Source of the DNA: Chloroflexota bacterium
GTDB taxonomy: Bacteria; Chloroflexota; Anaerolineae; Anaerolineales; UBA4823
Direction: 5' to 3'
Assembly: GCA_029265355.1 (NCBI GenBank)
Contig: JAJUJL010000003.1
Span: 124,001-188,000 of the forward strand
Length of the DNA: 64,000 bases
Shown here: positions 22,936-24,768 of the stretch, one piece after another
Position numbering within the stretch: the stretch's first letter is position 1
How the letters are laid out: each line of letters starts with the position of its first letter
Program-made: the position numbers and the translations under genes
Notes under the pieces: generated by a model
Databases searched by the model: none
What the model was told of the DNA's origin: nothing
The model's input: only the letters and a program-made list of their open reading frames with translations

Positions 22936-23430
22936 TTAGACAGCGTCTTGGACCGGCGAATGCTCCTGGTTTAGCTGCTCCAGTATTTCCAGCAGTTCTT
23001 CGTTGGCAGGAATGTCATACATCTGTTTGCCGTAGTGCACATATCGTGCAACACCCTCCTGATCAATGATCACCTGGGCAGGCATCCGTCCAAATTTAAA
23101 AAGGTTCACTTCTTGACCATATTTACGCAGCACGGTGTGATCTGGATCTGGCAGCCCGATAAACGGCAGTTTGTGCTCCTTCCAGTAGCGGCGGAAGGCA
23201 TCTTGATTTTCAGGACCAACCACAACGATCACGGCGTCTCGTTCGATAAACTTTTGATGATCATGACGCAACTGCGCCATATGCGCCTGGCAGAATGGTC
23301 ACATGAATCCGCGGTTGAAGACTAGCAGGACATTCTGATGACCCCTCAGGGAAGATAGGGTGAATTTCTGCCCATTTAAATCCTCAAGCGTAAAATCGGG
23401 GGCGGGTTGATTGAGAGCGATTTTAGGCAT
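22936..23430 (-). CDS. Peroxiredoxin-like protein with in-frame UGA: probable UxxC selenoprotein
   Basis: Read through one TGA at 23299-23301, this gives 164 residues with a complete AhpC/TSA thioredoxin fold: MPKIALNQPAPDFTLEDLNG at the start, then FNRGFM-U-PFCQAHM, then the helix, FKFGRMPAQVIIDQEG and C-terminal helix. Homologues have RGFWCPFC at this site, so the TGA replaces the first (peroxidatic) Cys of CxxC; U44/C47 are the predicted redox pair. A GGCGCA/TGCGTC hairpin begins 11 nt after the TGA and could be the SECIS element. A perfect-spacing promoter lies upstream. A standard caller would find only residues 51-164. No Sec machinery lies in the window, so this is an inference. Confidence 0.82.
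23265..23287 (-). other. Candidate bacterial SECIS hairpin
   Basis: In the mRNA, GGCGCA (23287-23282) can pair with UGCGUC (23270-23265), one G-U included, closing an 11-nt loop; the stem starts 11 nt after the UGA. Another fold using CUGC/GCAG within the same stretch is possible. Position is right for SelB recruitment, but bacterial SECIS sequences vary and no folding program was run. Confidence 0.45.
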
Positions 23431-23522: not shown

Positions 23523-23551
23523 AGTATAGCATAATGTTTATGTTATGTCAA
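23523..23551 (-). promoter_or_regulatory. Strong sigma-70 promoter of the peroxiredoxin gene
   Basis: On the minus strand TTGACA (23551-23546), a 17-bp spacer and TATACT (23528-23523). Expected start of transcription near 23515, giving an approximately 85-nt untranslated leader before the ATG at 23430. Confidence 0.75.
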
Positions 23552-23568
23552 GGTAATGTACATATATC

Positions 23569-24768
23569 TTAGAATTCGCCAGCCATCGAGCCGCTATAGC
23601 CGGTCATCTCGACATAACCATCGCCGAGCACCTGAGAACCAGCAAGCTGTCCCTGGATGGCAACCGCGCCTTCCCAGTAGGCGTAGGTCAGGTCGAGCTC
23701 CTGGTCGGCGAGATGGGGCGTCAGCTCCAGAGAAAGCCGCAGGCGTGGGATATTGATGTGCCAGCGCGCGGGGTAGACAGCGCCGGTGATCGGGCTGCGC
23801 CAGGTTGCCTGGACTGCGATTTGAAAATCCTCACGTGAAAGAGGCAGGCTGCTTCCATCCGAGGCGATGTAAGCGCCACTGGAGAAAGGATCGATGCTGC
23901 CGTCGTCACGGCGGATCTGGAAGAGCATCAGCTCGCTCTGATCCTCCAATTGGATGGAAAACCAATCCCAGCCAACCTGCCCCGGGGACAAAGCGCTGGT
24001 GCTGTACTCGTGGTCCATCCAGGAATAGCCGCTCACCGGGTAACTGGCGCCAGCGATGCTGAGCGTGCCCTGCGATTGCAGGCGGGTCTGGCTGAAGTAA
24101 TACGAAGCGTTTCCGGCTTGAGGCCCCTTTTGGCTGTAGCCGGCATCGCCCTGCAGGATTGGTCCTTTCAGATCGCGCAGGGTCAAATCCAGGCGCACGT
24201 CTTCTTGGGCGGCGATCAGGCGGTATTCTCGCTCGCCGGTTTGCTCAATGCTCCAATCTTCTAACCACACCTGGTAAGGCTGCGCCTGGGCGCCGGCCAG
24301 GCCAGCCGAGCCGCGCGACAGGCGTTCGAAAGCCACATGTTCCCCGGCGCGGGTATCGGTGATGGCAAAATGCGCCATATACGCCTGTGTCGTTCCCCAC
24401 CGGGAGGGGCGCGCGGGCCACAGCGCCGGAGGGAGCAGCGCCCGGCGGAAAAAAGTGAGCTGGAAACCAAAATGGCGCCCTTCCTGGGTGCGCAGATTTC
24501 CGGTGTAATACCACCATTCGGTCTGGTATTCCGGGTGAGCGCCAAAATCATCTGGAAAAACAATCGGCGCAGGACCATCCGCCCGGGCGAAACTGCTATC
24601 GGAGTCGCTCTGCAAGGCCAAGACCGGATCGCTATTGCCCGGTGCAGATGGGCTGGCGAGCTCGGCTGAGATCGTGGATCGTGCTGCAGGCTGGCAGGCG
24701 GACAAAAGCAGGGTCAGAAGGAGCGCCATCCAGTAAAGAGATTGCGGTTTACGAGGGGTATTTGGCAT
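23569..24768 (-). CDS. AttH/CrtC-like lipocalin-fold lipoprotein
   Basis: A 399-residue exported protein. The lipobox LLLSAC at about residue 24 predicts a lipoprotein. The mature part matches the carotenoid 1,2-hydratase/AttH family: EYQTEWWYYTGNL, HFGFQLTFFRR, YMAHFAITD and GYSWMDHEYSTSAL are its conserved blocks. AttH proteins are encoded with AttEFG ABC components, and here the gene follows the FtsX permease by 9 bp. The role in Att systems is unclear; it may bind a lipid at the membrane surface. Last gene of a run that begins with the ATPase at 29282. Confidence 0.85.
   Translation of the reverse strand: MPNTPRKPQSLYWMALLLTLLLSACQPAARSTISAELASPSAPGNSDPVLALQSDSDSSFARADGPAPIVFPDDFGAHPEYQTEWWYYTGNLRTQEGRHFGFQLTFFRRALLPPALWPARPSRWGTTQAYMAHFAITDTRAGEHVAFERLSRGSAGLAGAQAQPYQVWLEDWSIEQTGEREYRLIAAQEDVRLDLTLRDLKGPILQGDAGYSQKGPQAGNASYYFSQTRLQSQGTLSIAGASYPVSGYSWMDHEYSTSALSPGQVGWDWFSIQLEDQSELMLFQIRRDDGSIDPFSSGAYIASDGSSLPLSREDFQIAVQATWRSPITGAVYPARWHINIPRLRLSLELTPHLADQELDLTYAYWEGAVAIQGQLAGSQVLGDGYVEMTGYSGSMAGEF

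Follow-up and report, generated by a model that had tools for sequence, protein, structure and literature searches.

Selenocysteine (Sec) is almost certainly inserted at an in-frame TGA (23299-23301) in a redoxin gene on the minus strand of the stretch of Chloroflexota DNA analyzed here, 64 kb in full and referred to below as the window. The initial annotation had proposed a UxxC selenoprotein with an AhpC/TSA fold at this locus, and that proposal is borne out by the Sec machinery of the genome, by a TGA at the same column in all 110 of the loci compared, by a conserved SECIS element behind the TGA, and by a homologue with Cys in its place. The chemistry of the protein is a separate question, and here the evidence points, with less assurance, away from the peroxiredoxin selenoprotein with which it had been compared.

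Results

Reading frame and in-frame TGA

If the TGA is taken as a sense codon, translation of the minus strand from 23430 to 22936 gives a single open frame of 164 residues, which starts MPKIALN, carries NRGFM-U-PFC mid-way and ends VQDAV (Table 1). The TGA at 23301-23299, residue 44, is the sole in-frame stop ahead of the frame end, with 43 codons before it and 120 after; the figures of 50 and 114 given earlier were slightly off, 114 being the length of the callable ORF. The frame is intact across the TGA as had been stated, since the Pfam AhpC-TSA match (residues 7-130, E 1.5e-23) passes through it, and a Redoxin match also spans it. The expectation that gene callers would yield only a 114-residue C-terminal fragment likewise agrees with the ordinary ORF list, where the one ORF reported starts at ATG 23280. 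A TTGACA-N17-TATACT sequence, proposed as the promoter, is present with 11 of 12 matches, and a consensus match is weak evidence that it drives the gene. Upstream of the redoxin gene on the same strand lies a gene (23569-24768) for a CrtC/Lipocalin_9 protein with a lipoprotein-like N-terminus.

Table 1. Features of the redoxin locus, in window coordinates.
Feature	Position	Strand	Basis
CDS, 164-residue UxxC redoxin (AhpC/TSA, predicted peroxiredoxin fold), stop included	22936-23430	-	Read-through frame, Pfam, 110 aligned relatives, AlphaFold
In-frame TGA, predicted Sec codon, residue 44, first position of UxxC	23299-23301	-	TGA in 110/110 relatives; Cys in L130
TGC codon, Cys47, second UxxC residue, invariant	23290-23292	-	Invariant in A1, A2 and 110/110 relatives; aligns with AhpE and Bcp peroxidatic Cys
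Putative bSECIS hairpin, AUGGCGC-AGUU-GCGUCAU	23263-23280	-	Synonymous freeze; hairpin in real versus shuffled sequences; model of PMC13188914
Sigma-70-type promoter-like site, TTGACA-17-TATACT	23523-23551	-	11/12 consensus matches; single sequence only

Conservation of the TGA among relatives

Among 400 Chloroflexota genomes sampled, nearly all of the close relatives had exactly one in-frame TGA. A wider search, based on an alignment with the TGA column masked, covering 84,980 species with one genome per species and using a pattern about 60 residues away from the UGA site, found 433 relatives, of which 80 were kept; these supply 80 of the 110 loci compared. Every one of the 110 loci had TGA at the column and Cys three codons on. 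Most of the relatives are metagenome-assembled genomes. The titles mostly name Anaerolineae, the cultured Longilinea arvoryzae and Levilinea saccharolytica included, and some belong to bins labelled Actinomycetota, Coriobacteriia, Deltaproteobacteria or Myxococcales. Because the TGA occupies the same column in all of these relatives, its origin by chance is excluded. A pseudogene with a nonsense mutation, or a sequencing artefact, would formally account for an in-frame stop seen in one assembly, but the fixation of the TGA in 110 of 110 relatives from many genera, the intact frame, the invariant active-site residues and the SECIS refute an ordinary stop or error, to which we assign practically no probability. 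The earlier judgement that the gene is not decaying is upheld on the same grounds.

One homologue with 44% identity (L130) reads CPFC in place of UPFC, and in a paralogous AhpC/TSA group several genomes (L131-L134) have Cys (ETTCPQC) and another (L144) has TGA (EYT-U-MQC). Exchange of Cys and putative Sec at a homologous column is a mark of selenoproteins, and the alignment of homologues proposed as a check shows TGA in every locus of the family and a Cys form beside it. L130 was the only close Cys-form relative seen. In its genome (G232) the selA match is split, with an N gap at that place, selB is intact, and a search for tRNA-Sec returned nothing convincing, the candidate match being a tRNA-Ser; this genome may conceivably have lost Sec decoding.

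Selenocysteine machinery

The genome from which the window comes (5.05 Mb in 64 contigs, 98.45% complete) was searched for selA, selB, selC and selD. All four were found, neither selB nor selC being absent: selC, the tRNA-Sec, scored 75.4 bits and has the anticodon TCA, and selA (543 bits), selB (344 bits over both pieces) and selD (358 bits) each scored above the cut-off. With the four genes present the organism is, judged by its gene content, able to insert Sec. The selD gene (L018, G000:C31:236905-237837) has an in-frame TGA of its own in the context SSCAG-U-ASK, and a UxxK motif is listed for SelD (PMC13188914); with its TGA at a known Sec site, selD is by prediction a second selenoprotein of this genome. 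Full-length selA was present in 45 of 45 tested Chloroflexota genomes with the UGA form, against 322 of 400 in the phylum sample, and this co-occurrence is of only moderate weight because selA is common in Chloroflexota. An Rfam scan of the window returned nothing but one tRNA. A changed genetic code, with the TGA read as another amino acid such as Trp, found no support, and a complete Sec system, a SECIS past the TGA and a homologue with Cys rather than Trp at the column all speak against it, so that its likelihood is negligible.

SECIS element

A hairpin had been noted just past the TGA, and one does exist there, but the conserved SECIS is a different hairpin at 23263-23280. Its stem is 7 bp long, extended to 8 if a U-G pair at 23281/23262 is included, and its loop, which begins 25 nt past the UGA, is of the type NGUN (AGUU in the window) and contains GU. 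The published bSECIS model specifies a stem of 4-16 bp, a location 16-37 nt after the UGA and a loop 3-9 nt long that has G among its first two places (PMC13188914), and the hairpin agrees with it on every point (AGUU loop, 7-8 bp, 25 nt). A stem of at least 4 bp together with G at loop place 1 or 2 was found in 99 of 106 relatives, and 99% of real sequences had a bSECIS-like hairpin, versus 9% of synonymous-codon shuffles. At codons +8 to +10 past the UGA the synonymous sites are frozen, with GCG in 101/102, CAG in 93/93 and TTG in 98/102, whereas the choice of Leu codon is free at other places of these genes. Folding of the stretch +4 to +42 across the family gave a mean z of -1.4 (SE 0.07) versus synonymous-codon shuffles, compared with 0.02 for a control stretch. 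Covariation is scarce in the stem because the stem is so conserved that it hardly varies, and the case for the SECIS consequently rests on the synonymous sites. The window sequence alone, folded behind the TGA, showed no advantage over shuffles (z about 0), and the signal emerged only from comparison of the family. The family is, on these sequence data, a source of a clean and strongly conserved bSECIS that is usable as a benchmark.

It might be argued that translation stops at the TGA or restarts at ATG 23280, leaving the 114-residue C-terminal piece as the functional product; this ATG opens the callable ORF, and Met is common at that place in relatives. Conservation at the protein level upstream of the TGA (APDF.L.D..G and NRGF), in a part that holds the first strands of the fold, and the fact that the ATG codon belongs to the SECIS stem make this very improbable. 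Under Sec insertion, SelB bound to the hairpin 25 nt downstream would deliver Sec-tRNA(Sec) at the UGA codon (23299-23301) and translation would run on to the stop at 22936, a read-through that we infer from the machinery and hairpin found in the sequence.

Fold and active site

AlphaFold run on the family alignment gave a model with pLDDT 88 and pTM 0.85; on the single sequence, pLDDT was 42. The best solved structural relatives of the model are peroxiredoxins, with Z of 20.5 for Bcp1, 19-20 for AhpE and 19-20.5 over the set including Prx1/4, and the 164-residue protein is predicted to have the peroxiredoxin/AhpE fold. In alignments with AhpE and Bcp homologues it is Cys47, not Sec44, that falls on the peroxidatic Cys, while Sec44 is aligned to the Thr of TxxC and the Pro of PxxxTxxC is matched by Arg40. 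The peroxiredoxin motif PxxxTxxC is thereby absent from the protein, its place reading RGFxUPxC with Thr replaced by Sec and Pro by Arg40. Further along, Pro117 aligns with Arg116 of AhpE and with the corresponding Arg of the Bcp homologue; an invariant Arg115 two residues earlier might substitute for the peroxiredoxin catalytic Arg.

Gene neighbourhood

Genes flanking the relatives (L050-L129) often include those for DUF1295, MerR-B12-binding, DNA photolyase, TspO-like, DUF3159 and MFS proteins, in varying order. In 28 of 80 relatives, a count uncorrected for kinship, the 4 kb around the redoxin gene hold a gene for DUF1295, a MerR-B12-binding regulator, photolyase or a TspO-like protein, in several different arrangements, and two or more of these four neighbour types occur together at 19 loci. 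No operon partner common to all relatives was found. The window's own locus is without DUF1295, MerR-B12, photolyase and TspO neighbours and has the CrtC-type lipocalin gene at 23569-24768 instead.

Discussion

The insertion of Sec at this TGA appears nearly beyond doubt, and what the protein does with it may be considered from its motif and predicted fold. One possibility is a true peroxiredoxin, in which Cys47 would reduce peroxides, Sec44 would resolve and the role would be peroxide removal; this concerns the chemistry and leaves Sec insertion as it stands. Consistent with it, both the fold and the best PDB matches are those of one-Cys/Bcp peroxiredoxins (AhpE and Bcp1, Z about 20), and Cys47, at an invariant column, aligns with the peroxidatic Cys. 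Yet Arg40 and Sec44 take the place of the Pro and Thr of PxxxTxxC, and classical peroxiredoxin membership, despite the common fold, fails on this motif. The alignments also put Pro117 in the catalytic Arg column, where the nearby Arg115 might substitute. UxxC together with Pro at the place of the catalytic Arg is the arrangement of thioredoxin-like oxidoreductases, including that of thioredoxin and ResA, and ResA is itself among the matches of the protein. We consider a true peroxiredoxin rather unlikely, and the protein probably resembles a UxxC thiol:disulfide oxidoreductase in its action more than it does PrxU. Judged by motif and fold, thiol-disulfide chemistry is preferred over peroxidase chemistry, with some reserve. 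By taking the place of Thr in the peroxiredoxin motif, Sec may shift a peroxidase scaffold towards thiol-disulfide chemistry.

The active site is made up of Sec44-Pro-Phe-Cys47, and Pro117 aligns where peroxiredoxins have the catalytic Arg. Sec44 would act as the nucleophile on a disulfide or hydroperoxide, and Cys47 would resolve it by forming a selenenylsulfide, which would then be reduced by a thioredoxin-type system.

A possible physiological context is suggested by the gene neighbours. The flanks of the relatives look like a light-stress island, the MerR-B12-binding regulator being LitR/CarH-like, and LitR regulons are light-induced and include photolyase (PMC9758184). It is conceivable, at a tentative level, that these Sec-based redoxins form a lineage, found almost always as the Sec form in Chloroflexota, that helps to protect against damage by light or singlet oxygen. 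Such a role is a lead and not a conclusion because the neighbours in the window itself differ. Members of the family are common among Chloroflexota genomes, and ordinary annotation would give a C-terminal fragment of them or nothing.

Comparison with known systems places the protein among the redoxins but apart from the selenoprotein it had been likened to. PrxU of the Eubacterium acidaminophilum type likewise combines a peroxiredoxin fold with Sec at the active site, but in the window protein Sec occupies the Thr of TxxC, three residues before the place it has in PrxU, and Pro aligns at the catalytic Arg column. The NCBIfam PrxU model NF040737 gave no match to the window protein at E 1e-3 and only weak matches to 20 of 32 relatives (best 3.2e-7). 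Peroxiredoxin selenoproteins, the class of PrxU, are listed as TxxU in two recent reviews (PMC13188914, PMC9312934), and the likeness to PrxU is, with the PrxU model unmatched and the Sec at the Thr position, not sustained. AhpE of Mycobacterium tuberculosis (PDB 4x0x) and Bcp1 of Sulfolobus (3drn) share the fold (Z about 20), 25-26% identity and the position of Cys47, but both are without Sec, and AhpE has the TxxC active site, absent from the window protein, and a catalytic Arg to which Pro117 is aligned.

The window protein stayed below the cut-off of every NCBIfam model. The nearest is that of a SelL-related redox protein (NF040769), which is the top NCBIfam match for all 32 members scanned and scored 78.9 bits (E 3.4e-22) against the window protein, over residues 8-105 only and with a curated cut-off of 120 bits. 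SelL carries UxxU, whereas the window protein has UxxC.

The closest counterpart appears to be a known class, predicted with high confidence, of UxxC/UxxU proteins with a PF00578 domain, termed "Prx-like thiol:disulfide oxidoreductase" and exemplified by WP_010940744.1 (PMC13188914, PMC9312934). The PF00578 domain and UxxC are both present in the window protein, which shares with that class the AhpC-TSA domain, one Sec in UxxC and, as predicted here, recoding of UGA by a bSECIS. A search of the literature on selenoproteins of the UxxC redoxin type in Chloroflexota or Anaerolineae found nothing specific. Likened to the class by domain and motif, and differing from it in being centred on Chloroflexota, the proteins described here apparently form a new, unnamed subfamily of that predicted class, common in Chloroflexota and above all in Anaerolineae.
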